Shown: positions 2,411 through 64,000 of the stretch, one piece after another
How the letters are laid out: each line of letters begins with the position of its first letter
Position numbering within the stretch: the first letter of the stretch is position 1
From: Mycobacterium sp. 3519A
GTDB lineage: Bacteria; Actinomycetota; Actinomycetes; Mycobacteriales; Mycobacteriaceae
Direction: 5' to 3'
Assembly (NCBI RefSeq): GCF_900240945.1
Contig: NZ_OESG01000011.1
Span: 344,778 to 408,777 of the forward strand
Length of the DNA stretch: 64,000 bases
Translations under genes and position numbers: made by a program
The notes under the pieces: generated by a model
Database searches by the model: none
What the model was told of the DNA's origin: nothing
The model's input: only the letters and a program-made list of their open reading frames with translations

Positions 2411-2427
2411 CGGTTCGGGCGGTTCAG

Positions 2428-10495: not shown

Positions 10496-10650
10496 CTCGG
10501 CGATTCTAGGGAGTCGGCCCCACATTCCACGGTAATCATTTTCACACCCGAGGCACGGGACACATCCGAGGTGAAAAACGTCTTGATGGGTTACCTGAAC
10601 GCATTGACTCTCAGGCGAATATCTCGACGCCGACCGGCGTATAGGACAGC

Positions 10651-13129: not shown

Positions 13130-13287
13130 GGTGCACCACCTCCATCGATCTTGATACAGAACTGCCCTCACAATGGGCAACGAACCGTAACCAATGCTGG
13201 TGGTGTTTATGCACTGAGAGTCTGCTGGAAACCGGCGGACGCGTGGCCGTGCAGTTTTGAATGAGTTGCGCTGCCTACCGCCCGCTC

Positions 13288-13458: not shown

Positions 13459-13575
13459 GACGACGATGGTGTGTCTCCCAATGCCGCAGAGCAGTCCCGG
13501 CGAGAATGCGTGTTCTTACCCGAGCGATTCTGTGCCTATGGAGAATCTCGACTGACGGTGTCGAGGCCTGTGACG

Positions 13576-14187: not shown

Positions 14188-14336
14188 CTACCTCTTCCCA
14201 TAGTCGCTACCTCACACATGCGCCACAGCCGCCAAAAGCCGTGGACCGACCAGAGTTCCGTCTCCCGGAGGCAAGCTGGACTCCACACCCCGTGTTGGGC
14301 CGGCAGTAGTCGGCGGCCGAACTTCGACGACGGCAC

Positions 14337-16127
14337 TCATGGCGTCGCGTCCGCTCCTGCAGCCGACGATGACGCCCCAACGACCAGCAGAGCCTGTCGC
14401 AAAGATCCGGCGCCATGTCGCTCGGAGTCCAATGCCGCGACGATGTGACCATCCGGCCTAACGACTAGAGCGTCGAAACGCCTTGCGGGTACTCCCGTCT
14501 CAAAAATGTCGCGTTCGGCGACCGCTACTGGCGAGAATGGAAGACCCTCAGCCGCAACGCACCACACTGGCGCGCTTTCTGATGTCATCAGCAGGGTGAG
14601 TTCATCGCGACTGATCAGATCCAGCGTCGAAACACGGCCTCCCCGCTCGCTAACCCAGCGATGCGGAAGGCGCCCACCCGAACGCGAAAAAGGCGCGCAG
14701 AAGTGCTGATCATTGCGGGCGGCCGGTAGCCCATCGGAGGAAACCGCGCCATCTGTATATCGCACCCGCAAGTCGCGTCCACAGGTGTGGTGGTGGGAAC
14801 GCTGCCTTGTGATGGCTGCTCGAGCGCGGCGCCTTGCAGACCGCCCGACCCTGCCCGGCGAGATTCCCAGGAAGAAACGCTGGTACGCCAATCTGATCAG
14901 GCCGTGTAGGACCACACGCACGGGAGCCTGCGGTAACCACGTCGGCAGTGCGGCGACGGCACGAGGCAGCAGTCGTGCTGCTCGTCGCGGCAGGCCCAGC
15001 ACGGCAACAACTTCTAACATGCCGTCCAGGCTTTCCATTGCCTCGGCGGCCATGGCGACACCGACGGGATGACGTTCCCGCTCATAGGTGTTCAGCAAGT
15101 CGTCACCGGCTCGCCCGGTGTGCACCCAGGCCAGTTTCCACGCCAAATTGTGGACATCTGCGATACCCGTATTGAGCCCCAGCGCGCTGTCGGGCGGAAA
15201 CCGATGCGCTGCCTCACCAGCCAGGAAGGAGCGCCCTATCCGGTAGGTGGTGGCCACCTGCATTTGCACCGTCCACGACTCAACGGCCTTCACGTTGACT
15301 TCGATATTTCGGTCACCGATGGCGTCGAGGATGCGGTCGCGACAGGTCGCTGGAGGAAAATCGTCCAACGACTCGAAGGGGGGGAAATAGGGGAACTGAA
15401 ACACGAGGTCGTTTGGCCCCCCGTGGATCAGGAGGGCGCCGACACCGTTGGCGCTGCGGGTCCACACCACCGGCCCGGACGCAGCGCGCGGGAGGGCCTC
15501 GAGTTCGCCGCTGAAGTGCACGCTGACCATGTGCTGCAACATCGGTCCGTGCGTCGCGACTCCCAATGCAAGCCGGACACTGCTGGATGGACCGTCGGTG
15601 GCCACGATGTAGTTGGCCACGATGACGTCACGGGTTCCAGTCGCGGCGTCTGCGACGCTGACCGTGACGCCGTCAGTGAAGTCCGTGTGCGACAGGTACT
15701 TCCAACCTGTTCGGAGATCGATGCGCGGATTCCCACGCAAGTGGAGCCACAACAACGGCGAGAGCAGATTCTCTGGCAGGTGAACCGCACGGGTCGGGCT
15801 GACAAAGTCACCAACGCCCATATGCATGTCTGGCAGTTCAGCCGGGTGCGCTGGCTCCATCTCGAGACCTGTCAGTGCCGAGCAGTGGGGAATGCCGCCC
15901 TTCTCGCGCATCATTTTGCTCAGCGCGAGGATGTCACCCTCCAGTCCGACCTCGCGCCAAATCTCCATCGACCGTGTCGAAACGACGTGCACGGCGGGCC
16001 CGCTGTATGCCTGTTGTTGTGCCTCGATCACGATGCACGAAAGTCCTTGTGATGCGAGAAGCAGAGCGGCTGTGGCACCTACCGGACCGGCTCCAACAAC
16101 AATGACATCACAAGTGTCAGCGATCAT
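14337..16127 (-). CDS. FAD-dependent aromatic hydroxylase (PheA/TfdB family)
   Basis: Flavoprotein monooxygenase of about 596 residues. The N-terminal Rossmann motif CDVIVVGAGPVGATAALLL is followed by VIEAQQQAY. The second FAD motif is SFLAGEAAHRFPPDSALGLNTGIADVHNLAWKLAW, with GEAAHRFPP the variant of the G-D-A-A-H site, and a thioredoxin-like C-terminal domain completes it. The ATG at 16127 has GGAGA 5-6 nt upstream; a longer frame to 16205 lacks this. Relatives use NAD(P)H and O2 to hydroxylate phenols or polyketides (PheA, TfdB, MhpA). The SRPBCC protein, O-methyltransferase and SnoaL-like protein nearby suggest an aromatic substrate, by inference only. Confidence 0.87.
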   Translation of the reverse strand: MIADTCDVIVVGAGPVGATAALLLASQGLSCIVIEAQQQAYSGPAVHVVSTRSMEIWREVGLEGDILALSKMMREKGGIPHCSALTGLEMEPAHPAELPDMHMGVGDFVSPTRAVHLPENLLSPLLWLHLRGNPRIDLRTGWKYLSHTDFTDGVTVSVADAATGTRDVIVANYIVATDGPSSSVRLALGVATHGPMLQHMVSVHFSGELEALPRAASGPVVWTRSANGVGALLIHGGPNDLVFQFPYFPPFESLDDFPPATCRDRILDAIGDRNIEVNVKAVESWTVQMQVATTYRIGRSFLAGEAAHRFPPDSALGLNTGIADVHNLAWKLAWVHTGRAGDDLLNTYERERHPVGVAMAAEAMESLDGMLEVVAVLGLPRRAARLLPRAVAALPTWLPQAPVRVVLHGLIRLAYQRFFLGISPGRVGRSARRRARAAITRQRSHHHTCGRDLRVRYTDGAVSSDGLPAARNDQHFCAPFSRSGGRLPHRWVSERGGRVSTLDLISRDELTLLMTSESAPVWCVAAEGLPFSPVAVAERDIFETGVPARRFDALVVRPDGHIVAALDSERHGAGSLRQALLVVGASSSAAGADATP

Positions 16128-16365
16128 TGATTCTCCAATAGTGGTTGTATGTTTCGTCCCGCACCGACAAGGCCGCTCAGTGAAGCATGGTGTTGGTGAA
16201 GGCACGCCAGTGAAGTGGGCCGACGCTGGCCAGTCCTCAAGCGCTCACTTGCGAATCCGTCGTAGAGCCGACCGCCCATGAGCCAAGCTGTCGCTGACGC
16301 CAGTATCGCGACGGGCGTCGCCGCTCCGCTTGTCTATGCGCGCACGACTATTGATCGGTAACGAC

Positions 16366-16458
16366 CGCCGAACGGCATTCGGCGTGGTTTGCGAACGGTG
16401 TTGCACCAGCAGGAGATCGGCGGCCCCTCCTAGCGTCGCAGGCCTCGATACCGGACAG
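16366..16458 (+). pseudogene. 3'-terminal fragment of an ECF sigma-factor gene, opposite orientation
   Basis: In the plus-strand frame ending at TAG 16431-16433 the translation reads IRRGLRTVLHQQEIGGPS, aligning with the end of the intact sigma protein (IRRSLRMVLQQHEI...). DNA similarity continues about 25 nt past the stop codon into the 3' flank of the sigma gene (TAGCGTCRCAGGCCTCGAYACCG in both). The copy therefore includes non-coding flank and stops right at the stop codon of the SRPBCC gene. Orientation is inverted relative to 13576-14187. Confidence 0.8.
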
Positions 16459-44479: not shown

Positions 44480-45397
44480 ATGGTCACCGCAGGCTCCGGC
44501 ACCGAACGGATCGTCGTCGTACGCGACGGTATCCGGCTCGCAGTGCGCGACCAAGGGCCGCGGCACCCCGAGGCCACCGTGGTGCTGCTGCACGGGCTGT
44601 GCCTCGAGCAGGGCTCATGGGCAGACCAGATCCGGCAACTGACCCGGCAGTGGGGCGACCGCATCCGCATCATCAGCTATGACCACCGCGGCCACGGCGA
44701 GTCGGATTCCGCGCCGAAACGCACCTACACGGTGTCGCAGCTCGCCGAAGATCTCGCCGACGTCCTGACCGCTCTTCGGGTCACTGGCCGAGTCACCCTC
44801 GCGGGTCACTCGATGGGCGGCATGGTCGCCCTCGCCTACCTTGGCCTGCCTCGCGCCGATCGGCCGGTGGAGCCGCACGGACTGATCCTCGTTGCGACGG
44901 CCGCGGGCCGGCTCGCCGAGCGCGGCCTCGCTCGACTGTTGGCCAGCCCCGCAACCGACATGCTGTGCGGGCTCGCCGGTTTCGCGCCGCAGCGCGCCAT
45001 TCGGCTGCTGACCAAGCCCGTATGCGCGACGTTGGCCCGTCAGATCGGCAACAACGCGCGTTCGACACTGAGCGCGTTGTTCGCCAATGCCCTTGCTGCC
45101 ACCACATCCCTCGACTCCGCCGTCGGGTTCCTGCCCAGTCTGCGGTCCTACGACCAGACCGCCACGCTCGCCTCGGTCCGCGCCCAGACGATCATCCTCA
45201 GCGGGGGAGCCGACGTCCTGACGCCGCCGTCGCACTCGCACGACATGGCCGCCGCCGTCCCCGGCGCCGCACACGAGCACCACCCCTTCGCCGGGCACAT
45301 GCTGCTGCAGGAGGCTGCGCACGCCGTCACAGCCGCCATCAGCCGCACGATCGTCACGGCTGTCGGCGCCGATCTCGTCGAAGCGAGGACAGCGTGA
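44480..45397 (+). CDS. Alpha/beta hydrolase, first gene of the PKS operon
   Basis: Protein of 305 residues. VVLLHGLCLEQGSWADQI (oxyanion loop), YDHRGHGESDSAP, the nucleophile elbow LAGHSMGGMVALAY, ILSGGADVLTPPSHSHDMA with the acid residue and HHPFAGHMLLQEAA with the catalytic His make a complete Ser-Asp-His hydrolase. Its stop overlaps the FAAL start (GTGA, 45394-45397). It could release or trim the lipid product; a dedicated type II thioesterase is encoded separately downstream, so its role is probably different from that. Confidence 0.85.
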   Translation: MVTAGSGTERIVVVRDGIRLAVRDQGPRHPEATVVLLHGLCLEQGSWADQIRQLTRQWGDRIRIISYDHRGHGESDSAPKRTYTVSQLAEDLADVLTALRVTGRVTLAGHSMGGMVALAYLGLPRADRPVEPHGLILVATAAGRLAERGLARLLASPATDMLCGLAGFAPQRAIRLLTKPVCATLARQIGNNARSTLSALFANALAATTSLDSAVGFLPSLRSYDQTATLASVRAQTIILSGGADVLTPPSHSHDMAAAVPGAAHEHHPFAGHMLLQEAAHAVTAAISRTIVTAVGADLVEARTA

Positions 45398-47109
45398 ATC
45401 TCGTCGAGCGTCTCCGCTCCCACTTCGAAACCTACGGTGAGCGCCGCACTTTCACATTTCTGCAGGAGTCCGGTCGAACCCTCGTCGAGGACGTCGCGAC
45501 GTTCCGCGACCTCGACCGCGGAGCCCGCGAGGTGGCCGTGTGGCTTACCTCGCGGCCCGAGGCCTCCCGACCGGTGCTGTTGTTGTTCGAACCCGGCCTC
45601 GAGTTCTGGCGGGCATTCCTTGGTTGCCTCTACGCCGGAGTGATCGCGATACCTGCACCGCTGCCGCATGATTCGCGCAGCATGCAGCGGGTCGCCCGGA
45701 TAGTGCGCGATGCGGACAGCAGTCTGGCGCTGACGACCGCCAAGCTTCGTGACCTCCTCGCAGCGGGCGTTGACGGTCTCGGCCTGGACGACCCAATTGT
45801 GTTCGAGGCCATCGACGAATCGAAGCCGGTCGACCCCGACGCGTGGAGCATGCCTGCCATCGCGGCCGACACCGTCGCCTTTCTTCAGTACACGTCCGGG
45901 TCGACGGGCGACCCGAAGGGCGTCGTCGTCACCCACGGCAACGTGATGAGCAACACCGCCGCGATCACCGCGGCACTGACAGTGTCCGACGGTTCTGTCT
46001 TCACCGGCTGGATCCCACATTTTCACGACATGGGTCTCATCAGCGTCCTGAGCGCTTTCTCCGTCGGTGCGAAGGTCATCGCGATGTCACCTCTCGCGTT
46101 CCTCAAGCAGCCGGTCCGGCTGCTCAGGATGATCAGCGATTACCGCGGAACCCACACCGCTGCACCGAATTTCGCCTATGACCTGATCGCGCGGAGGGTG
46201 ACTGGAGAACAACTGGCCGGCCTTGACCTTTCCTCCTTGGCGGTGGCGCTCAACGGCGCCGAACCGGTTCGCCGTCGCACCGTCGAGCGGGTTACCGAGA
46301 TGCTCGCTCCGTTCGGTTTCGCACCGTCGGCAATGAGTCCCGCGTACGGCATGGCCGAGGTGACGCTGATGGCCACCTTCGCCCGCGATCACCCACGTTT
46401 TCTGGACGCCGACGCTGATGCGCTCGAGCAGAACCGCTACGAACCTGCCACGGGCCGTGCGGTCAGCCTGATGAGTTCGGGCGCGCCTGCACTCGGTATC
46501 GACGTGCGCATTGTCGACCCACACACCTTGCGTGAGTTGCCTGAGGGCCGCGTCGGCGAGATCTGGTTGCGCAGCGCCAGCGTCGCGGCCGGTTATTACC
46601 AGCGCCTCGCGGAGACGTTCGAAAAGTTCGACGCGTACACCTCCGGCGGCGTTGGGCCCTATCTGCGCAGCGGCGATCTGGGACTGCTCCACGACGGCGA
46701 GCTGTACGTGGCCGGCCGCCTCAAGGACCTGTTGATCGTCAACGGCCGCAACCTGTATCCGCACGACATCGAGGAGTTCGTGCAGGGCGTGCACCCGGCC
46801 GTCGCCGGTGCACGCGGGGTCGCGGTGTCGGTCGACGTCGACGACGCCGAACGGCTGGTCCTGATTCAGTCGGTCAAACCGGAACTGCTCGGCGATACGA
46901 GCTACGGCGAGCTCGCCGGCGCCGTCAAGGGTTCCGTGGCCCGCGCCTTCGACATCTCCGCTCCCGCAGTGGTTTTCGTCAACCGTTCCGGCATCCACCT
47001 GACCACAAGCGGAAAGGTGCAGCGCGCATCGATGCGGGCGGCCTTCCTCAACGCCGAACTGACCGATGTCGTCCACGACAGCACCGCAACCGTAGGAGCC
47101 CTCACATGA
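45394..47109 (+). CDS. Fatty acyl-AMP ligase (FAAL)
   Basis: Adenylating enzyme of 571 residues. The AMP-binding P-loop-like motif is FLQYTSGSTGDPKGVVVTHGN, followed by FTGWIPHFHDMGLISVL (the FAAL form of the His motif), PAYGMAEVTL, YLRSGDLGLLHDGELYVAGRLKDL (hinge) and a C-terminal SGKVQRASMR with the adenylation Lys. Length and the W-[IL]-P-x-[FY]-HDMG motif fit the FadD/FAAL class that loads long acids onto ACP domains instead of CoA. It overlaps both neighbours by 4 nt, and the next gene is a free-standing ACP, its probable acceptor. Confidence 0.92.
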   Translation: MNLVERLRSHFETYGERRTFTFLQESGRTLVEDVATFRDLDRGAREVAVWLTSRPEASRPVLLLFEPGLEFWRAFLGCLYAGVIAIPAPLPHDSRSMQRVARIVRDADSSLALTTAKLRDLLAAGVDGLGLDDPIVFEAIDESKPVDPDAWSMPAIAADTVAFLQYTSGSTGDPKGVVVTHGNVMSNTAAITAALTVSDGSVFTGWIPHFHDMGLISVLSAFSVGAKVIAMSPLAFLKQPVRLLRMISDYRGTHTAAPNFAYDLIARRVTGEQLAGLDLSSLAVALNGAEPVRRRTVERVTEMLAPFGFAPSAMSPAYGMAEVTLMATFARDHPRFLDADADALEQNRYEPATGRAVSLMSSGAPALGIDVRIVDPHTLRELPEGRVGEIWLRSASVAAGYYQRLAETFEKFDAYTSGGVGPYLRSGDLGLLHDGELYVAGRLKDLLIVNGRNLYPHDIEEFVQGVHPAVAGARGVAVSVDVDDAERLVLIQSVKPELLGDTSYGELAGAVKGSVARAFDISAPAVVFVNRSGIHLTTSGKVQRASMRAAFLNAELTDVVHDSTATVGALT

Positions 47110-47372
47110 ACGCCGACCGCCGCTCGATCCTGCGCTGGCTCACCGCGCAGCTCGCGTCCTATCTCGAGGTGTCAACCACCGCGATCGATCCGATGGTGCC
47201 GCTCGCCGAGATGGGCGTCGACTCGGTGCACGCGGTCAGCCTCGTCGGGGATGTGGAAGCACACTTCGACATCGACGTCGACCCGACGATGATCTTCGAC
47301 TACCCGACGCTGGCTCACATCGCCGAGTTCATCGACGCCGCCGTCGCCGAGCAGCAGGAGGCGGTGGCGTAA
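47106..47372 (+). CDS. Free-standing acyl carrier protein
   Basis: ACP of 88 residues. The phosphopantetheine Ser is in MGVDSVHAVSLVGDVEAHFD, with the typical acidic helix and the ending MIFDYPTLAHIAEFID. It overlaps the FAAL (ATGA) and the PKS (the TAA and ATG share one base). It probably carries the FAAL-activated acyl chain to the KS domain of the next protein. Confidence 0.92.
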   Translation: MNADRRSILRWLTAQLASYLEVSTTAIDPMVPLAEMGVDSVHAVSLVGDVEAHFDIDVDPTMIFDYPTLAHIAEFIDAAVAEQQEAVA

Positions 47373-50300
47373 TGAGCGACGTCGCCGTCGTCGGAATCGA
47401 TTGCCGCTTCGCGAAGGCGGGCGATCCGGCCGCGTTGTGGAAACTGCTGCTGGACGGCGCCGACGGCATCGATGAGATTCCGGCGGACCGCTTCAACGCG
47501 GCCGAACTGCATGACGACGGGACCCTCAACCACCGCACCGGCGGGTTCATCAGCGACGCCGACGCGTTCGACAACGACTTCTTCGGCATCACGCCGCGCG
47601 AGGCCCAGGCGATGGATCCCCAACAGCGCCTGCTTCTGCAGGCGACGTGGCGCGCGCTGGAAGACGCCACGCTCGACCCGCGTGCACAGGCCGGTTCGGC
47701 CACCGGAGTGTTCGTCGGGGTGATGGCCAACGAATGGGCGCATGTACATCTGACGGACTACCGCGAAATCACCGCGCAATCGGGTTCGGGCAACGGCTAT
47801 TTCATGACGGCCAACCGGCTGTCCTACCAACTCGATCTCAGAGGGCCGAGCCTCGCTGTGGACACCGCGTGCTCGTCGTCGCTTGTCGCAGTGCACGTGG
47901 CCGCGCAGGCGCTGCGCAACGGCGAATGCGACCAGGCCATCGCCGCCGGGGTCAACCTCACCCTGACCCCCGCCGTCAACGTTTTCTACACGCAGGCCGG
48001 GCTGGCCGCACCGGACGGGCGCTGCAAACCGTTCAGCGGCGCAGCCGACGGAATCGGCCGCGGCGAAGGCGTGGCGGTCGTCGTGCTGCGACGGCTGGAA
48101 GACGCGGTGGCCGCAGGTCTGCCGATCTACGCCGTGATCAAGGGCAGCGCGGTCAACAGCGACGGCCGCAGCAACGGCATCACCGCGCCGAACCGCTGGG
48201 CCCAGCAGCAGGTGGCCGCCACCGCATATCGGGCTGCCGGCATCGTGCCTGCGCAGATCGCCTTCCTCGAAGCGCACGGCACCGGAACGCTTCTCGGCGA
48301 CATGATCGAGGCGAAGGCGATGGCCGACGCGCACCGCTCGGGCCGCGACGAGCCCTGCGCAATCGGGTCGATCAAGGGCAACCTCGGCCATACCGAGGGC
48401 GCGGCAGGCATCGCAGGGCTGATCAAGATTGCGCTGAGCCTGCATCACCGGGTGGTGCCTGCGTCCCGGTTCGCAGAGACCGAGAACGCCCGACTTCGGT
48501 TGGCCGCCGGGGGACTGCGGCTGCTCACTTCGCCGATGGAACTCCCGGCCGAAACCGTGTATGCGGGGGTCTCCAGCTTCGGAATCGGCGGCACGAACTG
48601 CCATATGGTGCTCGCCAGTGCACCTGCGGTTGAGCCAGCTTCGACCGCAGCCGGCGACGGCGTGTTCACCCTGTCAGCCGACTCGCCGGAGGCGCTGCAC
48701 TGCAACGCGTTACAGCTCGCCGACGACATCGAGAACAGTGACGTCCCGATCGCCCAGTTGGGTTTCTCGACGAACCGGATCAAGTCTTCAGGCAAGGTTC
48801 GGCTCGCCGTCGTCGCCGCTGACCGCGCCGAGTCCGTCGCGGCACTGCGCGGCGACTTCGAAATCGGCACCGCGGCGGGAATGTCGGCGGGCTGGTTGTT
48901 CAGCGGGCAGGGCACGCAGTACCCGGGCATGGCGGCGTACGAAAGCAACGCGGTGTTCCGCGCCGCCTTTGACGCCGTCGACGCCGCGATGCTGCCGCAC
49001 CTTGGCGTGCGGATCACCTCGATCATGAACGACAACCGCGTGAACGACACCGAATTCGCCCAGCCCGCGATCTTCGCGCTGCAGTACGCGCAGGCGCGGG
49101 CATTGCTTCAACTCGGTGCCGAACCCGCCTGGCTGCTCGGCCACAGCATCGGCGAGTACGCCGCCGCCGCGATCGCCGAGGTGTTCAGCCTCGACGACGC
49201 CTGCCGGCTGGTGATCGCACGCGGTCGGCTCATGCAACAGCTACCCGACGGCGGCGGCATGCTGGCGGTCCGGGCGGGTGTCGACGACGTGACCGGAGTG
49301 GGCCTCGACCTCGCCGCAGTGAACGGGACCGACGAAGTCGTGTTGTCGGGTGCGATGGAGGCGATCGACGAGGCCGTGCACACCCTGGCAGGCGTCGGGA
49401 TCACCGCACGTCGGCTCAACGTGTCGCACGCTTTCCACTCCCGACTGATGGAGCCGATGACCGCGAAGTTCGCGTCGATCGCTACCGAAATCTCGTACCG
49501 ACTACCCGTTTTCCCGATCTTTTCCACGCTGCGCGGCCGGCTGCTCGGCGACGACGAGCCGATGGATGCGGACTACTGGACCGAGCACATCGGTGCCACC
49601 GTTCGGTTCGCCGACGCGGCAGCAGAGGCGATGCACGCCGAGCCGACACACCTCGTCGAGTTCGGCGCCAAGCGCACGCTCGCTCCGATGATCACGCGCG
49701 CCCACCGCAAAGCGCCATCCGCCCTCACCGTCGCGACAGGCGTCACCAAGGTCGTCGCCGCGCTTTACCGCGACGGTCTGAACCCCGACTGGAACCTGCT
49801 GTACCCCAACGAAGCTCGGGTTCCTCACCGGCTCAGTGGCTACTCGTTCAGCACCGCCAACCGCTTCTGGGTGAAAGAACCTGTATCCACCACGGCCCCA
49901 GCCACCAAGGACTCGACCATGGACAACCTCATCGCCCTGTTTCGCGAACAGGCGGCCGTCCTGGCCGCCTACGGCCAGGGTGACGCGCCGGTCACCGCCG
50001 CGACGACGCCCGCGCCGCAGGCGAACCCGGCCGTCGACGTCGCCGCGATTGTGCGCGCCGAGGTCGCACGCGTCAGCGGCTTCCCGGATGCCAAGTTGCG
50101 CGCGGCGCAGACCATCGCAGGCGACCTCGGCTTCGATTCGATCATGGTGACCGACCTTGCGAGCGGGCTCGCTCGCAAGGGCATCACGATCGACCCCAGT
50201 GGATTCGGCCAGGCGACGACCATCGCCGATGTGATCGCCATGGCGGGCGGACGGGTACCGGAGTCTGCGGCAACGGAAGTCGCGCCGACAGTGAGCCCGC

Positions 50301-51517
50301 AGTTCCGGATCGGGGAGTTCGAGGAAGTCAAGGCGTTGGCCGATCGGAAGGCGCTCGCCGAGGCCGTCGGCGTCGAGAACCCCTACTTCCTGGTGAACGA
50401 CGGCGTCACCCGCGACACCTCGGTGATCAACGGTGCCGAGGTCATCAACTTCTCCAGCTACAACTACGTCGGCATGTCGGGTCACCCCGCGGTGGCCGCG
50501 GCCGTGTCGGACGCGGTGCGCCAATGGGGCAGCTCCTGCTCGGCGTCGCGCCTGCTGTCGGGGGAGAAGCCCGTCCACCGCGAATTGGAACTCGAGTTGG
50601 CGAACCTGCTCGGCACCGAGGACGCGATGGCACTGGTCAGCGGTCACGCGACCAACGTCACCGTGATCGGGCATCTGCTCGGCGGCGGCGACCTGGTGAT
50701 CCACGACAGCCTCGCGCACGACAGCATCATGCAGGGCTGCAAGCTCTCCGGCGCCACCCGCAGGCCGTTCCCGCACAACGACCCCGGTGCGCTCGACCAG
50801 CTGCTCACCAGCATTCGTCACCAGTACCGTCGGGTGCTGATCATCATCGAAGGGGTTTACAGCCAGGACGGCGACATCCCGGACCTGCCAGCCTTCATCG
50901 AGGTCAAACGCAAGCACCAGGCCTTGCTGATGATCGACGAGGCACACAGCATCGGTGTGCTCGGTGCCACCGGTGGTGGCATCGGTGAGCACTTCGGCGT
51001 CGACCGCGCCGACGTCGAATTGTGGTCGGGCACAATGTCGAAGGCGCTGGCCGGCTGCGGCGGTTACGTGGGCGGCAGCAGGGAACTCATCGAGTTCCTG
51101 AAGTACACGACGCCGGGCTTCATCTACAGCGTCGGCATGCCGCCACCCACAGCGGCAGCGTCGCTCGCGGCGATCTGGGCGATCCGCAGCGAGCCCGAGA
51201 CGTTGAAGCGGCTACGCGACATGTCCGCCCTGTTTCTGGAGCTGGCCCGCGAAGCCGGTGTGGACACCGGCGAGAGCGAGGGCACCCCGGTGATCCCGTG
51301 CATCGTCGGGAGCTCCGTCACCGCGCTGAAGCTGTCGAATGCGCTGCTGCGCCGCGGCATCAACGCCAATCCGATCCTCTACCCGGCCGTGCCGGAGGAC
51401 AAGGCGCGGTTGCGGTTCTTCGTCACCAGCTGCCATTCGGAAGAACAGATCCGCTACACGGTGAAGACGATCGCCGAAGAGCTCGCCATTCTCGCCGACT
51501 CTCCGGCAGGCGGGTGA
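47372..51517 (+). CDS. KS-AT-ACP-alpha-oxoamine synthase polyketide synthase
   Basis: Multidomain protein of 1381 residues. KS occupies about residues 1-425, with Cys167 in VDTACSSSL, His302 in EAHGTGT and His340 in KGNLGHTEG. AT (about 500-800) has Ser592 in GHSIGEY and the HAFHS motif of malonyl-specific AT domains. ACP has Ser923 in GFDSIMV. From about residue 1000 a complete PLP-dependent alpha-oxoamine synthase follows: NFSSYNYVGMSGHP, GSSCSASRLLSGEKPVHREL, DEAHSIGVLG and Lys1224 in GTMSKALAGCGG. There is no KR, DH or ER. The last domain should condense the ACP-bound acyl chain with an amino acid, losing CO2 and releasing an alpha-aminoketone, as in AOS-terminated pathways (Fum8, SxtA, PigH). 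Product inferred, not known. Confidence 0.92.
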   Translation: MSDVAVVGIDCRFAKAGDPAALWKLLLDGADGIDEIPADRFNAAELHDDGTLNHRTGGFISDADAFDNDFFGITPREAQAMDPQQRLLLQATWRALEDATLDPRAQAGSATGVFVGVMANEWAHVHLTDYREITAQSGSGNGYFMTANRLSYQLDLRGPSLAVDTACSSSLVAVHVAAQALRNGECDQAIAAGVNLTLTPAVNVFYTQAGLAAPDGRCKPFSGAADGIGRGEGVAVVVLRRLEDAVAAGLPIYAVIKGSAVNSDGRSNGITAPNRWAQQQVAATAYRAAGIVPAQIAFLEAHGTGTLLGDMIEAKAMADAHRSGRDEPCAIGSIKGNLGHTEGAAGIAGLIKIALSLHHRVVPASRFAETENARLRLAAGGLRLLTSPMELPAETVYAGVSSFGIGGTNCHMVLASAPAVEPASTAAGDGVFTLSADSPEALHCNALQLADDIENSDVPIAQLGFSTNRIKSSGKVRLAVVAADRAESVAALRGDFEIGTAAGMSAGWLFSGQGTQYPGMAAYESNAVFRAAFDAVDAAMLPHLGVRITSIMNDNRVNDTEFAQPAIFALQYAQARALLQLGAEPAWLLGHSIGEYAAAAIAEVFSLDDACRLVIARGRLMQQLPDGGGMLAVRAGVDDVTGVGLDLAAVNGTDEVVLSGAMEAIDEAVHTLAGVGITARRLNVSHAFHSRLMEPMTAKFASIATEISYRLPVFPIFSTLRGRLLGDDEPMDADYWTEHIGATVRFADAAAEAMHAEPTHLVEFGAKRTLAPMITRAHRKAPSALTVATGVTKVVAALYRDGLNPDWNLLYPNEARVPHRLSGYSFSTANRFWVKEPVSTTAPATKDSTMDNLIALFREQAAVLAAYGQGDAPVTAATTPAPQANPAVDVAAIVRAEVARVSGFPDAKLRAAQTIAGDLGFDSIMVTDLASGLARKGITIDPSGFGQATTIADVIAMAGGRVPESAATEVAPTVSPQFRIGEFEEVKALADRKALAEAVGVENPYFLVNDGVTRDTSVINGAEVINFSSYNYVGMSGHPAVAAAVSDAVRQWGSSCSASRLLSGEKPVHRELELELANLLGTEDAMALVSGHATNVTVIGHLLGGGDLVIHDSLAHDSIMQGCKLSGATRRPFPHNDPGALDQLLTSIRHQYRRVLIIIEGVYSQDGDIPDLPAFIEVKRKHQALLMIDEAHSIGVLGATGGGIGEHFGVDRADVELWSGTMSKALAGCGGYVGGSRELIEFLKYTTPGFIYSVGMPPPTAAASLAAIWAIRSEPETLKRLRDMSALFLELAREAGVDTGESEGTPVIPCIVGSSVTALKLSNALLRRGINANPILYPAVPEDKARLRFFVTSCHSEEQIRYTVKTIAEELAILADSPAGG

Positions 51518-51521
51518 GACG

Positions 51522-52208
51522 GTGCGACTGTTCTGCTTTCACCACGCAGGCGGGGGACGGACGACGTTCAACGCCTGGAATCGGGCGCTGCGCCCGGCCG
51601 TCGAAGTCGTTGCGGTCGAGATTCCCCACCGCGAGCGATTCGACACGCTGCGCCACCTCGTGGACGAAGTCAGCGATCAGCTGCGACCCGCGCTGGCTGC
51701 CCCGCACATGTTCTTCGGCCACAGCTTCGGCGCACTGTTGGCCTATCGGCTGGCATGCAGGCGGGCCGCAGACGGTGCCCCGCCGCCTCGGGCGGTTTTC
51801 CTGTCTTCATATGCTCCGCCACACCTGCCCGCGCCGCTTCATGCTGTGAACACCCTCGACGATCACCAGCTTGCGACACTTCTGTCCGATTTGGGTGGAA
51901 TGCCGCACGAGATCATTCGATGGCCCTCGCTGCGCGATCGAGCCGTCGCGACAGCGCGAAATGACCTGCGGCTGTGCATGACTGACGACGAGGACAGTAC
52001 CGCGTTGCTGTCCTGCCCGATCCACGCCTTCGGAGGCAGCGACGATCCCGTCGTCAGCGAAGCCGACCTGCACGAATGGGGTATGCGCACATCCGCGGAC
52101 TTCTCGGTGCAGATGCTGCGGGGCGGCCACTTTTACCTCAATGACAAGCCGCAGTTGTTCGCGGTCCTGAAGCCCCTGCTGTCGACGGTCGGGGCAGCGA
52201 GATGCTGA
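51522..52208 (+). CDS. Type II thioesterase
   Basis: Alpha/beta-hydrolase thioesterase of 228 residues of the GrsT/TEII family. LFCFHHAGGGRTTFNAWNR is the family opening, MFFGHSFGALLAYRLA has the nucleophile Ser, FGGSDDPVVSEADLHEW the Asp region and LRGGHFYLND the catalytic His. It starts 4 nt after the PKS stop and overlaps the MmpL start. Such enzymes clear wrong acyl groups from carrier domains. Confidence 0.92.
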   Translation: MRLFCFHHAGGGRTTFNAWNRALRPAVEVVAVEIPHRERFDTLRHLVDEVSDQLRPALAAPHMFFGHSFGALLAYRLACRRAADGAPPPRAVFLSSYAPPHLPAPLHAVNTLDDHQLATLLSDLGGMPHEIIRWPSLRDRAVATARNDLRLCMTDDEDSTALLSCPIHAFGGSDDPVVSEADLHEWGMRTSADFSVQMLRGGHFYLNDKPQLFAVLKPLLSTVGAARC

Positions 52209-54724
52209 CCCGGCTGGCCGAGTTCGTGGTGCGACGGCCCAAGGTGGTGCTGTTTGCCGTCGCGGCTGTGCTTGGTGTCAGTATCGTTTTCGGCGGCACG
52301 GTCTCCGAGAAGCTCGGCATCGGTGGCTTCGTCGACCCCGCGTCGGAATCGACTCAAGTGGCCGATTTTCTCGACGAGAACTTCAGCACCACACCGAATC
52401 TGGTGCTTCAGGTTGCAGCCGCCGAAGGCACCGTCGACAGCCCGGCGGTCACCGCGGCCGCGGATCGACTGCGCAAACTCGTCGAAACCGAGTCGTCGGC
52501 GAAGGTGATCGGATCGTTCCAACAGGATCCGGCGGGCGATCTGCGTAGTCGCGACGGGCAGTCAGGGTTGATCCTGGTCAATGTGGGGGGTACCACCGAC
52601 GAGGCCGCGAAGACGGCGAGGCGACTCATCGGGAAGCTACCCGCGACCGATCAAGACGTCTCGGTGCGCGTCGGCGGATCGCTTGGCGTGCAGGAGGAGA
52701 TCGAGAGCAGGGTCCATCACGATCTGCTGATCAGCGAGAGCATCGCGTTGCCGATCTCGCTCGCGGTGCTGGTGCTCGTCTTCGGCGGACTCGTCGCGGC
52801 TTTCCTGCCGCTGGCCGTCGGTCTGACCTCGATCGTCACCACGATGCTGGTGTTGTACGTCATGACCACGATCACCGACGTCTCGGTGCATGCGCTCACC
52901 GTCGCGACGGCATTCGGACTCGGATTGTCCATCGACTTCGGCTTGCTCATGGTGTCGCGCTTCCGCGAGGAACGGGACAGGGGCAGAGACCACGAGTCGG
53001 CCATCGTCGCGACGGTCACGACTGCCGGCCGCACGATCATCTTCAGCGCGGCCACCGTCACCCTGGCCATGGCTGGACTTCTGGTGTTCCCCACCTACTT
53101 CCTGCGCTCAGTCGGCGTCACGGCCAGTGCGGTCGTCATCCTGTCGGCCTTCAGCGCAATCGTCGTGGTGCCCGCACTCTTGGCCGTCCTGGGGCGGCGG
53201 ATTGACGGGCTCGCGGTGGTGCGTCGCAAGGCTCCGCTTTCGGCCGATTCGGTGTTCTGGCGACGTTTCGCCGGCGCGGTGACGCGCAGACCGCTGCGGT
53301 GCGCCTTGCCGGTCGTCGCTGCGCTGCTGGCTCTTGGCATTCCGTTCCTGAGCGCACAATTCGCCACGCCCGACGAGCGCGCGTTGCCGTCAGACTCGAA
53401 CGCGCGCTTGTTGGCCGACTCACTGCACACCGACTACGCCGTGGACGCCTCGCAAGCGGTCACGCTGCTGGCCCGCACCGACGCCGCAGCCCTCGAAGAG
53501 CTCGCCGCCGCCGTGTCGGACATCCCCGACGTGGTCCGGATCGATGTGCTCCCTGCCAGTGAAAAGTCCGGCGCTGCTTACGGGTTGGCGTATCTATCGG
53601 TCGGTGCCCAGTCGGATGCCGCTCAACAAGTCGTGCGCGATATCCGTGCAAAGGTCACCGATCACCAGGTCCAAGTGGGCGGTCCCACCGCGACGCTCAT
53701 CGACAGCCGCGCCGCTGTCGCGGACCGGCTTCCGTTGGCGATCGCCATCATCGCACTGGCGACGTTCGTGCTGCTGTTCCTCTTCACGGGCAGCATCGTG
53801 GTGCCGGTCAAAGCGCTCGCCCTCAATCTGTTGGTGCTGAGCGCCGTGCTCGGAGCGATGGTCTGGATCTTCCAGGACGGGCATCTGGCTTCGTGGTTGG
53901 GCGTCAGACCCGCGCCGCTGAACCTGTCGATGGTGGTGCTGCTCTGCTGCATCGCGTTCAGCTTGTCCGTTGACTACGAAATCTTTTTGCTCAGCAGGAT
54001 CAAGGAAGCCCGCGACGCGGGGTTGTCGAACAACGACGCCATCGTCGTCGGACTGGGGCGCGTGGGGCGAATCATCAGCAGTGCAGCGGTTTTGCTCACC
54101 ATCACGCTGCTGTCCTTCGCCAACGGGTTGTCCTTCATGAAGATGTTCGGCATCGGCACGGCGCTCGCGGTCGTCCTCGACGCGACCGTGATCCGCGGCA
54201 TCATCGTGCCTGCATTCCTGCGCGTCGCAGGCGAGTTCAACTGGTGGGCGCCGCGGCCACTTCGACGGCTGCACGATCGCATCGGCTTGCGCGAGGTGCC
54301 ACCGAGTGTCGCGCCGACGCGGTGCTCAGAGCCGGATACCGTCCGCTTCCTGAACAACGCGCTCAACGCTCCGACGGTCCGGATCAGGCCGCTGCTGGGT
54401 TTCCTTGTTCTCGAGGACGATTCCCGAGTCGCGATCGACCGGGACTGCGTGGTAGGCCGGATCCCGCAGGAGTCCAGCGCCGTCGGACGACGCGGCTTTC
54501 GTCCCATTCGCATCCCCGGACTCACGAGCGAGATGTCGCGGGTCCACATCGAGATCCGCCACGTCAACGGTCAGGTGTTCGTGGTCGACGCCGGCTCCAG
54601 GAACGGCACCTTCATCCGTGAGCCCGCGGGTCGCGGCTGGGTCCGGTTGGCGCCCTTGCGCCCTGCGCTGTTGCGTCCTGGAACGGTCATCCGGATCGGC
54701 TGCCGGACGCTCCGCTACGAATAG
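52202..54724 (+). CDS. MmpL (RND) lipid transporter fused to a C-terminal FHA domain
   Basis: Protein of 840 residues. Residues 1 to about 710 form a compact MmpL transporter with two copies of the RND half: GLGLSIDFGLLMVSRFREERDRG and SLSVDYEIFLLSRIKEARDAG carry the membrane D-Y/F motifs used for proton coupling. There are about twelve membrane segments, two periplasmic loops and no MmpS partner nearby. Residues about 725-840 are an FHA domain: VVGRIPQ (Gly-Arg), EMSRVHIEIRHVNGQVFVVD (Ser-Arg-x-His) and GSRNGTFI (S-x-N-G-T), the full phosphothreonine-binding signature. I know of no such fusion as a standard MmpL type. It overlaps the thioesterase and ends the operon, so it probably exports the product, perhaps under Ser/Thr kinase control. 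Confidence 0.9.
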   Translation: MLTRLAEFVVRRPKVVLFAVAAVLGVSIVFGGTVSEKLGIGGFVDPASESTQVADFLDENFSTTPNLVLQVAAAEGTVDSPAVTAAADRLRKLVETESSAKVIGSFQQDPAGDLRSRDGQSGLILVNVGGTTDEAAKTARRLIGKLPATDQDVSVRVGGSLGVQEEIESRVHHDLLISESIALPISLAVLVLVFGGLVAAFLPLAVGLTSIVTTMLVLYVMTTITDVSVHALTVATAFGLGLSIDFGLLMVSRFREERDRGRDHESAIVATVTTAGRTIIFSAATVTLAMAGLLVFPTYFLRSVGVTASAVVILSAFSAIVVVPALLAVLGRRIDGLAVVRRKAPLSADSVFWRRFAGAVTRRPLRCALPVVAALLALGIPFLSAQFATPDERALPSDSNARLLADSLHTDYAVDASQAVTLLARTDAAALEELAAAVSDIPDVVRIDVLPASEKSGAAYGLAYLSVGAQSDAAQQVVRDIRAKVTDHQVQVGGPTATLIDSRAAVADRLPLAIAIIALATFVLLFLFTGSIVVPVKALALNLLVLSAVLGAMVWIFQDGHLASWLGVRPAPLNLSMVVLLCCIAFSLSVDYEIFLLSRIKEARDAGLSNNDAIVVGLGRVGRIISSAAVLLTITLLSFANGLSFMKMFGIGTALAVVLDATVIRGIIVPAFLRVAGEFNWWAPRPLRRLHDRIGLREVPPSVAPTRCSEPDTVRFLNNALNAPTVRIRPLLGFLVLEDDSRVAIDRDCVVGRIPQESSAVGRRGFRPIRIPGLTSEMSRVHIEIRHVNGQVFVVDAGSRNGTFIREPAGRGWVRLAPLRPALLRPGTVIRIGCRTLRYE

Positions 54725-58034: not shown

Positions 58035-58390
58035 ACCAAGGAGGCTAGCCGCGAGTGCTGCATCGAACAGAGTAATTGACGCCTGCGTCCGCGAAACTCT
58101 TTGCCCACGAGACTTTTTCGGGAGCAAAGAGCTATGTGATGGTTTACCTCTCCGTCAATTGAGAGTTAGTCTGATCGGCAAAGAAGCACGTCTCACTGGA
58201 TTGAGCCCGGAAAGGGCGGCAGGCCGCGCTCTGGTGAACCGTTCCCGGGTACCAGGTACCGGGCTTCTCGTCGCAACCTTGAGGCGAGGTGAACCGACGT
58301 GGGGGACAGAATCGGGCGCTTGGTCCCGCTCAGCGGTGAGGGCGGCCCGATTTGCTAAAGCGTTGGCCGACAAGGTTGCCGCGGACGGGC
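58035..58390. other. Intergenic region upstream of the large mmpL gene
   Basis: About 355 bp with no gene I can support. Two GGTACC words separated by one base (near 58247-58259) form a short hairpin-like element. The promoters of the DUF2505 and mmpL genes should be here. Confidence 0.4.
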
Positions 58391-61300
58391 ATGACGGGCA
58401 CAGCCACAGCGGGCCGTGTTTTCCAGCGGCTGGGCGAGTTCATCGTGTGGAAGCCGTGGATCGTGGTCGCCTGCTGGATTGCGCTGGCCCTCGTTCTGCC
58501 AACGATGTTTCCGAGCTTGGCATCGGTCGTACAGAAGCAGCCCGCCTCTCCGTTACCCGCCGGCGCCCCGGCGATGGTCGCCACGGAGCAGATGGCCAAG
58601 GCGTTCCCCGATTCCGGTTCGGAAGACAACGTGCTGCTGTTGCTCTTGACCAACGAACGCGGGTTGAGCGCGTCTGACGAACAGATCTACCGAACGTTGG
58701 TCGACCGCCTCCATCGGGACATCAACGACGTCGTCATGTTGCAGGACTTCGTTAGCACACCTGCGTTGCGCGAAACACTCACCAGCCGGGACGGAAAAGC
58801 TTGGATCCTGCCGGTTGGCCTCGCAGGTACCTGGGGTTCCGCGGCGTCCGACGCCGCGTACAAACGGGTTACCGGCATCGTCGAGAACACCGTCGCCGGC
58901 ACGACGCTTACGGCGAACCGGACCGGAACAGCGGCCACCGTCGCTGACTACATCGACGTCAGTGCTCGAGATCAAGGCCGGATCGAAGCTGCGATCATGA
59001 CTCTGTTGCTGGTGATCCTGCTGATCATCTACCGCAACCCGATCACGATGTTGTTGCCGTTGGTCACCATCGGCTTCTCGCTCGCGATCGCAGGGCCGGT
59101 CCTGGCCGGGGTCTCCCAACTGGGCCTGGCGGTTTCGAGTCAGACGATCGTCTTTCTCACGGGAATGGTCGCCGGTGCCGGAACGGATTACGCCGTCTTT
59201 CTCATCAGCCGGTACCACGACTTCTTGCGCCACGGCGCGGACTCGGACCAAGCGGTGAAGAGCGCGTTGAGCTCCATCGGAAAGGTGATCGCCGCTTCGG
59301 CTGCCACGGTCGGCCTCACGTTCCTTGGGATGAGCTTCACCCGATTGGAATTGTTTGCAACGACCGGTCCCGCGTTGGCGATCGGGATCGCCCTCGCGTT
59401 CGTTGCTGCGGTGACCCTGCTGCCAGCCATCGTCGTCCTGACCGGTCGCCGAGGCTGGATCAGACCACGGCGTGAACTCACCACCCGTTTCTGGCGGAGG
59501 TCTGGCATTCGAATTGTCCGCCGCCCCGCGGCCAATCTTGTCGCGAGCTTGATCGTGTTGATCGTCTTGGCCGGTTGCCTGGGTGTGGTGCGCTACAACT
59601 ACGACGACCGCAGGGCGCTGCCGAATTCCGTCGAAAGCTCAATCGGCTATGCCGCGATGGATCGACATTTCCCGTTGAGTTCGATGATTCCCCAGTACCT
59701 GTTGATTCAGTCACCGCACGATTTGCTGACTCCAAAAGCGCTCGCCGACATGGAACAAATGGCACAGCGGGTAAGCCAGCTCCCCGCTATGGCGGCGGTC
59801 CGCGGTATCACTCGACCCAACGGAGTGCCGCTGGAAGAAGCCAGCACGACGCATCAGGCCGGCGAAGTGGGAAAGCGACTCGACGACGCGTCGGTGCTGA
59901 TCAAGGATCGCGGCGCCGACTTGGACCGATTAGCCTCTGGCTCAAACCAATTGGCCGACGGCATAACCGTCCTTCGGGACCAGTTAACCAAGCTGATGTC
60001 CGGCGTCAGCGGTCTGATCGATGCTCTCAAGTCGGTCGAGAGCCAGTTCGGCGGGAGCACGACGTTCGGACAGATGGGTGACTCCGGCCGCCTGATCGGC
60101 GGAATGCGCTCCCTCGGTGACACGCTTCAAGTGACCTTCGGCAATATGGCCACCAATCTGGAGTGGGTTGATCCGGTAGTGGTCGCACTCGACGGCAGCC
60201 CATACTGCGACGGCGACCCCCTCTGTGTCGGTGCGCGCGACCAGTTCCGGCAGATTCAAACCGCCAAAAACGATGGGACCATCCAAAAGCTCGCCGGGCA
60301 GTTGCAGTCGACTGGACCGCTTTCCAATCTGTCGCAGATGGTCTCGAAGTTGACCTCATTGATGAACTCGCTCACCGGTCCGATGGGCTCGGTCGGAATG
60401 GCCGGCGGCAGCGGCTCGTCTCAACCCGGCGACATGCAACAAGGCCTTGATTCACTTGCCGATGGAGGGCGGCAGGTGGCTGACGGTGTGCAGGAACTCG
60501 TTAACCAAACCAAACGGATGGGCGCAGATCTCACCGAGGCGTCAAAGTTCCTGCTGGCAATGAAGAATGATGCCGCGACGCCATCGATGGCGGGGTTCTA
60601 TATTCCGCCGCAAGTGTTGACGTCGGACGATTTCAAGAAGGCGGCCACGTTCTTTGTGTCGGCTGATGGGCATGTGGCGAGGTATTTGGTACAGACGGAA
60701 CTGAGTCCCTTCAGCACCGCAGCAATGGATCAAGTCAATGCGGTCATCAATACCGCTCGTGGAGCTCAGGTGAACACCGCGCTGGCGGATGCGAAGATAT
60801 CGATGACGGGATACACGGCGACCCTCCGAGACGCGCGGGACTACTACAACCACGACATTCGATTCATCGTCCTCTTGACCGTGATTGTCGTGCTCTTCAT
60901 CCTGATTGCTCTGCTGCGTGCGATCGTCGCGCCGCTTTACCTCATCGCTTCGGTGGTCATTTCCTATTTGGCGGCGCTCGGTATGGGCGTCGTCGTGTTC
61001 CAATTCGTCCTTGGCCAGGAATTGCACTGGAGCGTGCCCGGGCTTGCCTTCATCATCTTGGTCGCAATGGGCGCGGACTACAACATGCTGCTCATCTCCC
61101 GCATCCGCGACGAGTCGCCGCGGGGCATACGATTCGGCGTCATCCGCACCGTCGGCTCGACCGGCGGTGTGATCACTGCGGCTGGGCTCATCTTCGCAGC
61201 CTCCATGTTCGGTCTGCTGTTCTCCAGCATCAGCACCAACATCCAAGCGGGCTTTGTGGTTGGCATAGGAATTCTGTTGGACACCTTTCTAGTACGTACA

Positions 61301-61426
61301 GTGACGGTCCCGGCGATGGCTGTTCTGGTAGGTCGTGCGAACTGGTGGCCGTCGCAATGGCGACCGCGGTTGCCGGAGCGGGTCAGCTCACCCGAACGAC
61401 GTACAGCAGGTGTGCCAGATGGATGA
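58391..61426 (+). CDS. Large MmpL-family lipid transporter
   Basis: RND transporter of about 1011 residues, close to the usual MmpL length. The first membrane segment follows [20 protein letters not shown]. The two proton-relay motifs are [20 protein letters not shown] and [17 protein letters not shown] long second periplasmic loop (about 430 residues, between the two membrane bundles) is rich in Gln/Leu coiled-coil ([40 protein letters not shown]), as in MmpL4/8/10. ATG 58391 is preferred over an upstream TTG at 58352. No mmpS gene precedes it. MbtH and PKS genes follow, so it probably exports their product. Confidence 0.92.
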
Positions 61427-62021: not shown

Positions 62022-64000
62022 GTGCATGAACCACGAGAAACCTCTGTCGCCGTGATCGGCGTGGCCTGTCAGCTTCCGGGCGGCATCAACTCTCCAGAAC
62101 GGTTGTGGGATGCCCTGCTGCGCGGTGACGACCTGGTCACCGAGATTCCGGCCGACCGATGGAACGCCGACGAATACTACGATCCCCAGCCGGGGGTGCC
62201 GGGTCGGTCGGTATCGAAGTGGGGCGGGTTCCTCGATGACGTCGCCGGCTTCGACTTCGAGTTCTTCGGGATCAACGAGCGCGAGGCCATCGCCGTCGAC
62301 CCCCAACATCGCCTGCTCCTGGAAACCTCTTGGGAGGCTGTGGAACACGCCGGTATCACGCGGAAAACAATGACCGACTCGTTGACGGGTGTGTTCGTGG
62401 GGCTGACGCATGGCGATTACCAGCTGCTGGCCGCAGACGCGCACGCTGTGGAAGGGCCCTATGGCTTCACCGGCAGCAGTTTCAGTCTGGCGTCCGGCCG
62501 GATCGCTTACGCCCTAGGGCTTCACGGCCCTGCCGTCACAGTGGACACCGCATGTTCGTCTGGTCTGACCGCAGTCCACTTGGCGTGCCGCAGTTTGATC
62601 GACGGTGAAAGCGACCTTGGCCTGGCCGGCGGGGCCTCTGTCATCCTGGACCCACGCAAGTTCGTCGCTGGCTCGGCGGAGGGCATGCTGTCTCCGACCG
62701 GACGATGCCATGCGTTCGATGTCGGCGCGGATGGGTTCGTGTGCTCCGAAGGCTGCGTCGTGGTGCTGCTCAAACGTGTGGCCGACGCGCTGAACGACGG
62801 CGATCGGATCCTGGCCGTCATTCGCGGCACGGCCGCCAACCAAGACGGCCATACCGTCAACATCGCCACACCATCGGTGACAGCGCAGACGGCCGTCTAT
62901 CGGGCGGCGTTGACGGCTGCGGGCGTCGACGCAGGCACCATCGGTATGGTCGAGGCACACGGCCCCGGCACCGCGGTCGGCGACCCAATCGAGTACACCA
63001 GCCTGTCCAACATCTACGGCATCGAAAACCCCTGTGCACTAGGCACACTCAAAACCAATTTCGGGCATGCGCAGTCAGCCGCCGGAACGCTGGGGCTGCT
63101 GAAGACGATCCTGGCCCTGCAGCACGGTGTGATCCCTCCGAACCTGCACTTCACCCGGTTGCCGGACGATTTGGCCCGAATCTCTACGAAGCTCTTTGTG
63201 CCACAGACAATCACGCCATGGCCTGTTGGTAGTCGTCCGCGCCGCGCGGCCGCGTCCTCGTACGGGCTCTCCGGCACCAACGTGCATGCGATCCTGGAAC
63301 AAGCTCCTGAAGTGGCCGTGCCCGAGACCATCCCACCCGAAACCGGCATGGGGCAGCGTTGGCTGTTCCCGCTGTCGTCCACTTCAGCTGAGGGGCTGCG
63401 TTGTACCACCGGCAGTCTGGCCGACTGGCTCACTGCACACGACGACGTGTCGTTGCCGGATCTGGGCTACACCCTGTCCCGTCGGCGGACCCACCGTCCA
63501 GTGCGGACGGCCGTCCTGGCCGGCGCCCGGTCGGAACTCCTCGCGACCTTACGAGAAGTCGCCGCTGGCGACACGCCCTTTCAGGCCGCGGTGGGCCAAG
63601 ACGACCGTGGACCGGTCTGGGTGTTCTCCGGTCAGGGCTCGCAGTGGGCGGGGATGGGCGCTGAACTGCTCGCGACGGAACCGGTTTTCGCGTCAACCGT
63701 CGCGCAGGCCGAACCGCTGATCGCCCGCGAGGCGGGATTCTCGGTCACTGAAGCGATGACCGCGAGGAAAACCGTCACCGGTATCGACCGTATCCAACCG
63801 ACCCTGTTCACCATGCAGGTCGCGTTGGCCGCTGCGATGCGCTCTTACGGGGTGATGCCCGGGGCCGTCGTCGGGCACTCCCTCGGTGAGGTGGCGGCCG
63901 CGGTCGTCGCCGGGGCCCTGTCACTGGAGGACGGCGTGCGCGTCATCTGTCGGCGCTCCCGACTGATGTCTCGCATTGCCGGAGCGGGTGCGATGGCGAC
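62022..64000 (+). CDS. Type I polyketide synthase, MAS/Pks5-like, cut by window end
   Basis: N-terminal 659 residues of a modular-iterative PKS. GTG 62022 gives [20 protein letters not shown]. The KS domain has Cys178 in [19 protein letters not shown], His in [12 protein letters not shown] (with Pro in place of the usual T of HGTGT, as in Pks2/Pks5/MAS) and [10 protein letters not shown] with the second His. AT begins at about residue 530 ([15 protein letters not shown]) and contains [11 protein letters not shown]; the sequence ends soon after, before the acyl-specificity motif. [20 protein letters not shown] and the overall text are very close to the mycocerosic-acid-synthase-like Pks family that builds methyl-branched acyl chains. 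Remaining domains (expected DH, ER, KR, ACP) are outside. Confidence 0.95.

Follow-up and report, generated by a model that had tools for sequence, protein, structure and literature searches.

RedL of Streptomyces coelicolor is, among synthases of known product, the one nearest in architecture to the enzyme described here. Its full domain order is reportedly fatty acyl-AMP ligase (FAAL), acyl carrier protein (ACP), ketosynthase (KS), acyltransferase (AT), a second ACP and alpha-oxoamine synthase (AOS), an arrangement said to have been described by Mo et al. in 2008. According to two papers, RedL converts dodecanoate to a beta-ketomyristoyl thioester and condenses it with glycine in a pyridoxal phosphate (PLP)-dependent reaction with loss of CO2, giving 4-keto-2-undecylpyrroline; RedK then forms the pyrrole, and RedJ releases dodecanoate (PMC11188435, PMC12654105). 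We analysed a 64,000-nucleotide stretch of Mycobacterium sp. 3519A (contig NZ_OESG01000011.1, positions 344,778 to 408,777; hereafter the window), which contains a six-gene operon built around a polyketide synthase (PKS) that ends in an AOS domain. Comparisons of sequence and gene order suggest, with moderate confidence, that the operon encodes a synthase of the RedL type, divided among three genes and located outside any prodiginine cluster.

The three genes of the putative synthase are a FAAL gene (45394-47109, GTG start, 571 amino acids (aa); Pfam AMP-binding), a free ACP gene (47106-47372, 88 aa; Pfam PP-binding) and a PKS gene (47372-51517, 1381 aa) whose product has the order KS-AT-ACP-AOS with a malonyl-type AT (Pfam ketoacyl-synt, Acyl_transf_1, PP-binding and Aminotran_1_2). 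They are preceded by an alpha/beta hydrolase gene (44480-45397, ATG start, 305 aa; Pfam alpha/beta hydrolase) and followed by genes for a type II thioesterase (TEII; 51522-52208, GTG start, 228 aa; Pfam Thioesterase) and an MmpL-family (RND) transporter (52202-54724, 840 aa; Pfam MMPL and FHA). All six lie on the plus strand, and no internal stop occurs in any of them. The joins, from hydrolase through MmpL, are -4, -4, -1, +4 and -7 nt, in agreement with the sequence-only reading, which had described six genes that either overlap by 1-7 nt or are 4 nt apart. The mechanically called FAAL frame opens upstream of the assigned GTG start, at 44965, and the hydrolase and FAAL genes overlap by 4 nt. 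Pfam also bore out the gene identities given in that reading and added to them a C-terminal FHA (phosphopeptide-binding) domain in MmpL.

In the PKS, the KS Cys/His/His residues, the GHSIGE and HAFHS motifs of the AT and the LGFDSI motif of the ACP are intact, and so are GTMSKA, DEAHS and DSLAHDS in the AOS domain, which begins at about residue 985. No ketoreductase (KR), dehydratase (DH), enoylreductase (ER) or thioesterase (TE) domain was found in this protein with Pfam. Motif and Pfam evidence thus agree with the earlier claim of one malonyl-type AT and no reductive domains, and a complete AOS with its PLP lysine at Lys1224 was also correctly called (Lys264 in a fragment whose first residue is 961). 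For the FAAL, the five top NCBIfam models were PRK05691 (nonribosomal peptide synthetase/PKS; 400 bits), PRK05850 (fatty-acid--AMP ligase; 380 bits), PRK07768 (labelled CoA ligase; 314 bits), FadD21 (313 bits) and FadD32 (308 bits), with all five scores below the models' own cut-offs; PRK05850, which describes fatty-acid--AMP ligases, thus ranks first among the ligase models. The AOS part matches in sequence enzymes with solved structures (KBL-type, serine palmitoyltransferase, ALAS and BioF). With serine palmitoyltransferase, 8-amino-7-oxononanoate synthase and KBL it shares the PLP-enzyme family and the catalytic Lys/His/Asp, but it is a PKS domain behind an ACP and scores below the NCBIfam cut-offs (286/640, 267/500, 338/426 and 281/460 bits). 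Among the best 25 of 37 families it stayed under every cut-off of the curated models for these enzymes, and none of the serine palmitoyltransferase equivalog models was passed (286.3/640, 267/500 and 206.2/670 bits). Fum8 and SxtA4, named in the sequence-only reading, likewise have PLP-dependent AOS domains serving polyketide chain release.

The window set shares with RedL the order FAAL-ACP-KS-AT-ACP-AOS, here over three adjacent genes, together with a malonyl-type AT, no reductive domain found between KS and AOS, and a RedJ-like TEII neighbour. It differs from RedL in being divided among three genes, which overlap by 4 and 1 nt, instead of forming one polypeptide, in having an MmpL neighbour and in lying outside a prodiginine cluster. 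Single proteins with the complete order were found in two genomes of the class, L062 (genome G585) and L064 (genome G739); the L062 protein has an extra C-terminal NAD-epimerase-like domain, which we take to be a fused RedK. Both have a TEII gene beside them, in the position of RedJ, and a RedN-type AOS protein upstream, and the window TEII is 34% and 33% identical to the two TEIIs. Both fused proteins sit in genomes with a match to RedH, the prodiginine ligase, as shown by scores of 1667 bits in G585 and 980 bits in G739. Matches to RedH at E 1e-200 or better occurred in 3/394 class genomes (G585, G685 and G739), and the cut-off of 1350 bits was exceeded in two of the 394 (G585 and G685), G739 lying below it. 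The RedH gene directly follows the TEII gene in G585; in G739 it shares a contig with the AOS match and begins about 3 kb past it, and an amino-acid adenylation gene that exceeds its cut-off and a weakly PigJ-like fragment lie nearby.

Residues 4-1378 of the window PKS align with residues 805-2192 of the L064 protein at 36.7% identity. By domain, identities to L062 and L064 are 40% and 40% for FAAL, 48% and 43% for KS and 51% and 50% for AOS, and the first ACP is 29% identical to that of L062. When the AOS of the G585 protein was compared with the genome of strain 3519A, the window AOS came top (51%), followed by a second AOS (44%). The KS-AT of the window PKS has the same top NCBIfam model, NF045894, as that of the L062 protein, and both score below its cut-off. 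In the AOS tree, the rows of the window clade, RedL, the 'st' (Streptomyces-type) group, clade II, myxobacteria, planctomycetes and cyanobacteria made up one set, which was apart from RedN and KBL types, also in a smaller sample; the three RedN-type rows made a set of their own. In the FAAL tree, the window FAAL grouped (97 SH-aLRT) with both RedL FAALs and a pair of paralogues from its own genome, apart from seven other FAAL-type rows of that genome.

Several observations weigh against a RedL-type assignment. Within the large AOS set, the 'st' actinobacterial rows, and not RedL, form the sister group of the window clade (94/90). The window KS formed no clade with the RedL KS in the tree, although such a clade was not rejected (p-AU 0.32); KSs of three PKSs in the window's own genome are 46-48% identical to it, as similar as those of the RedLs (48% and 43%). 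In a conserved stretch the window AOS has ASR where both RedLs have ATP. The genome has no RedH match over the cut-off (best 244 bits against 1350), and the epimerase-like domain of L062, used as a RedK-like query, found nothing in the window at E 1e-3. In G685 (L194, L195), RedN- and RedJ-like genes were found near RedH, and no RedL-type AOS was found. The RedK-like query also gave no match at E 1e-5 in the 32 loci of the window's own clade described below, and one 22% match in L163, outside that clade. Orthology to RedL by tree was rejected as unsupported, the AOS lying on another branch and the KS clade having the p-AU given above. Because neither the AOS nor the KS tree gives a RedL clade, the resemblance is one of architecture and probable chemistry, and descent from RedL is not supported by the trees. 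The window KS was moreover set apart from the KSs of the 'st' rows and of clade II (100/100; 100 in another tree), a contrast with the AOS placement which hints that domains have been exchanged between PKS and AOS.

The AOS query matched 42 of 396 genus genomes at E 1e-60 or better. The best match was at least 77% identical in nine of these (the window's own genome included), 54-58% in seven, 62% over a partial match in G250 and at most 46% in 25; among the class, 38/394 genomes matched. A contig scan of named genomes gave 321 relatives, of which 80 were kept, and the first 32 kept loci (L093-L124), grouped by identity and layout, constitute the window's own clade (clade I); this set and the 396-genome set share some genomes. 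The 32 loci come from Mycobacterium/Mycolicibacterium (moriokaense, intermedium, asiaticum and others), Smaragdicoccus, Nocardia (19 loci), Rhodococcus, Antrihabitans and one Solirubrobacteraceae metagenome-assembled genome (MAG). A protein search returned 3690 proteins, and the named ones among the best 120 come from these genera or else from Nocardiaceae.

A FAAL gene lay near the PKS in 31/32 clade loci, and so did a free ACP gene (by profile search); the single exception, L096 from M. intermedium, had neither within the stretch read. TEII was present in eight of the 32 and MmpL in six, and no other gene family (open reading frames of at least 90 aa) beside the PKS occurred in more than six. 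The KS Cys/His/His residues were kept in all 32 loci, as were a malonyl-type AT motif (HAFHS in 31, DAFHS in one), the AOS lysine motif (widened pattern) and DEAHS; GHSxGE and the AOS histidine motif were found in 31 each, and the ACP motif in 30 by the pattern used. Since FAAL and ACP accompany the same PKS in 31/32 loci across several genera, the operon association is beyond chance, and since the other families reach at most 8/32, the minimal set kept by evolution is FAAL, ACP and KS-AT-ACP-AOS, with hydrolase, TEII and MmpL optional. In eight further genus loci (L037-L044), FAAL and ACP were present in 8/8, TEII in 7/8 and an adjoining MmpL in 6/8.

From the families of these proteins, the FAAL would adenylate a fatty acid and load it onto the free ACP, and the KS-AT would extend it once with malonate, so that the second ACP would carry a beta-ketoacyl thioester. 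The PLP-dependent AOS would then condense this thioester with an alpha-amino acid, with loss of CO2. Release by the AOS after a single extension is, in our judgment, quite likely. If the parts act as their families do, loading by the FAAL, extension by one malonyl-type KS-AT without reduction and release by the AOS would make a 2-amino-3,5-diketone the first product. Its amine and far ketone are suitably placed, as in RedL, so that a five-membered ring is expected: by RedL chemistry the diketone would cyclise to a 2-alkyl-4-keto-pyrroline, of which a 3-hydroxypyrrole is a tautomer, and a ring product is the outcome that we reasonably favour. Glycine is a first guess by analogy with RedL, held tentatively, and the ASR of the window AOS against the ATP of both RedLs lowers certainty on it further. 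TEII may edit the carrier or supply free fatty acid as RedJ does, and MmpL would move the lipid outward in species that have it. No product assigned to an orthologous cluster was found by searches of open-licence PMC literature and by term searches within six papers (PMC11837247, PMC6310278, PMC5550956, PMC7413640, PMC11188435 and PMC12654105; subscription papers and preprints lay outside this scope), in line with the sequence-only reading, to which no described mycobacterial metabolite of this kind was known, and the conserved split RedL-type synthase is apparently uncharacterised so far.

The sequence-only reading had proposed a FAAL-fed, AOS-released lipid resembling a sphingoid base. By sequence, the FAAL, the single malonyl module and the intact AOS stand, but the open-chain 2-amino-ketone product is disfavoured, because an unreduced beta-ketoacyl thioester would reach the AOS and because RedL, with the same order, gives a cyclised 4-keto-2-alkylpyrroline; the precedent in PMC11188435 is one of ring closure. 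An open-chain product would require either a reductase removing the beta-keto group in trans or a KS that does not extend, and we consider it unlikely. Reductases acting in trans could supply the first, and the window AOS shares its large clade with Planctomycetota FAAL-ACP-AOS proteins without KS or AT (L126 was examined), from which a plain aminoketone is expected. The PKS itself, however, has no KR, DH or ER domain that could be found, and no tailoring reductase family (open reading frames of at least 90 aa) is kept beside it across the 32 loci. Release of an unextended acyl thioester sits badly with an AOS behind a KS-AT-ACP whose motifs are intact, and because the KS and AT motifs are kept in 32/32 loci, malonate extension is probably real. 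Sequence alone does not show that a single KS-AT module is non-iterative, and several extensions before the AOS would give a longer poly-keto amine and another heterocycle; RedL, however, extends once according to PMC11188435, and we hold iteration to be quite improbable. An inactive AOS or PKS, making the operon a relic, is extremely improbable: no evidence for it was found, the frames are intact and the catalytic motifs are kept across 32 loci from several genera.

A variant compatible with the split RedL-type synthase concerns the amino acid. With serine, alanine or another amino acid, the same ring chemistry would yield a substituted hydroxypyrrole, as with PigH/RedN, which use serine in making the bipyrrole half of prodiginines; according to PMC11188435, their AOS acts on a beta-ketothioester, and the product closes to a hydroxypyrrole, a likeness to the chemistry proposed here. 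The SR pair of the window AOS occurs also in RedN- and BioF-type alignment rows and is missing from both RedLs. The RedN-type rows, however, are 37% identical to the window AOS and form a separate clade, and in both AOS trees the window AOS grouped with RedL and apart from RedN. We regard this variant as a substantial minority possibility. Assignment of the amino acid substrate from the AOS alignment was rejected, as it offered no safe rule.

The split RedL-type synthase may have a wider meaning. We think it possible, at a little under even chances, that mycobacteria, nocardiae and rhodococci share a so far unrecognised, free-standing pathway to 2-alkyl-4-keto-pyrrolines (3-hydroxypyrrole lipids), which uses half of the prodiginine logic, with MmpL-FHA export in some species, and that this pathway is part of a broader AOS clade whose members in Planctomycetota, Myxococcota, cyanobacteria and a Bacillus relative use a FAAL, alone or together with a PKS module, to make amino-ketone or pyrroline lipids. 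If so, the envelope or secretome of mycobacteria and nocardiae would gain a class of nitrogen-heterocycle lipids, the exact product mass would be predictable for each fatty acid chain, and RedL-type synthesis would stand alone across several genera, beyond its step in prodiginine formation. On chemical grounds the predicted product would be electron-rich and readily oxidised; it could act as an antioxidant, pigment precursor, metal ligand or signal.

An MmpL gene adjoins the FAAL-PKS genes of known mycobacterial lipid loci (PDIM, sulfolipid and others). In these, according to PMC11837247, the FAAL passes a fatty acid to the PKS, as proposed here, whereas release by the window AOS is predicted to give a nitrogen-containing product. 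The window's MmpL subfamily (at least 64% identity) was found in 29/396 genus genomes, comprising 9/9 with a clade-I PKS and 20/387 without, in a survey that scored at most two candidates per genome (Fisher p 1.7e-11, kinship not corrected). In two of the nine PKS-bearing genomes (G341 and G188) the MmpL gene is unlinked to the clade-I PKS, and none of the 19 Nocardia stretches has an MmpL adjoining the PKS. Ten MmpL sites away from the PKS, eight from genomes without a clade-I PKS and two from G341 and G188, gave zero matches to the FAAL, KS and AOS queries over 17-20 kb each (E 1e-5). MmpL as an exclusive partner of the PKS was rejected in view of the 20 PKS-less genomes. The earlier notion that the operon has its own exporter comes down to the linkage of MmpL within the operon, because the subfamily is also found in those 20 genomes and stands beside the PKS in 6/32 loci; on the basis of operon linkage only, MmpL probably exports the product lipid in species having it. 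Near PKS-AOS genes of the other lineage, in actinomycetes of the same class (L053, L059 and L061), MmpL genes 40-46% identical to the window's were observed. The hydrolase was rejected as a conserved component, as matches of 38% and 36% occurred in 2/32 named loci and were differently placed.

The genome of strain 3519A has a second AOS locus (L052, plus strand), in which a PKS (4160-10498), an AOS (10495-11829), a 202-aa protein (11826-12434) and an MmpL (12431-15247) are joined by 4-nt overlaps. Its PKS is fully reducing (KS-AT-DH-ER-KR-ACP), and its free AOS is 43% identical to the window AOS; AOS matches at this level (42-46%) exist in other genus genomes too. By sequence, L052 fits a sphingoid-type aminoketone better than the window operon does. 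Elsewhere in the genome (G000:C13:1868515-1872516; L004, L085) lies a FAAL-ACP-KS-AT arrangement that includes another ACP-like stretch but, as far as it was read, no AOS; its KS is 48% and its FAAL 39% identical to the window's. L045-L050 and L156 represent a second Mycobacterium PKS-AOS lineage with its own FAAL, 55-60% identical in AOS and 35-38% in KS.

Relatives of the wider family have AOS identities of 54-63%, and one example per layout was checked with Pfam, the cyanobacterial layouts excepted. Planctomycetota loci encode FAAL-AOS proteins, 1130-1205 aa long, that gave neither KS nor AT matches, and in L126 (4224-7841) Pfam placed an ACP between FAAL and AOS; such FAAL-ACP-AOS proteins are possible ACP-dependent sphingoid-base synthases. 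L128 (Myxococcota) has a FAAL and a KS-AT-KR-DH-AOS protein, its ACP recognised by similarity only, L172 (a Blastopirellula MAG) a fully reducing PKS-AOS, and the cyanobacterial relatives are PKSs with a free AOS. L163 (3026-12267) of Ectobacillus panaciterrae comprises a FAAL, an ACP-KS-AT-ACP-AOS protein, an NAD-epimerase-like gene and a TEII, which by sequence would be a RedL/RedK/RedJ-like set in a Bacillus relative.

Upstream of the operon lie genes for trigger factor, Clp protease, homocysteine S-methyltransferase and ClpX and a UDP-glycosyltransferase-like gene; downstream are FdhD and a GFO/IDH/MocA oxidoreductase, followed by a second MmpL (58352-61426) and a PKS from 62043. This second MmpL and the PKS (62043-64000 in the window, running past its end; open frame 2088 aa) apparently belong to a separate neighbouring lipid locus. 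In L042 (G104; 1628-16382), a related set likewise lies between clpX and fdhD with a different internal order, possibly reflecting repeated use or reshuffling of one site.

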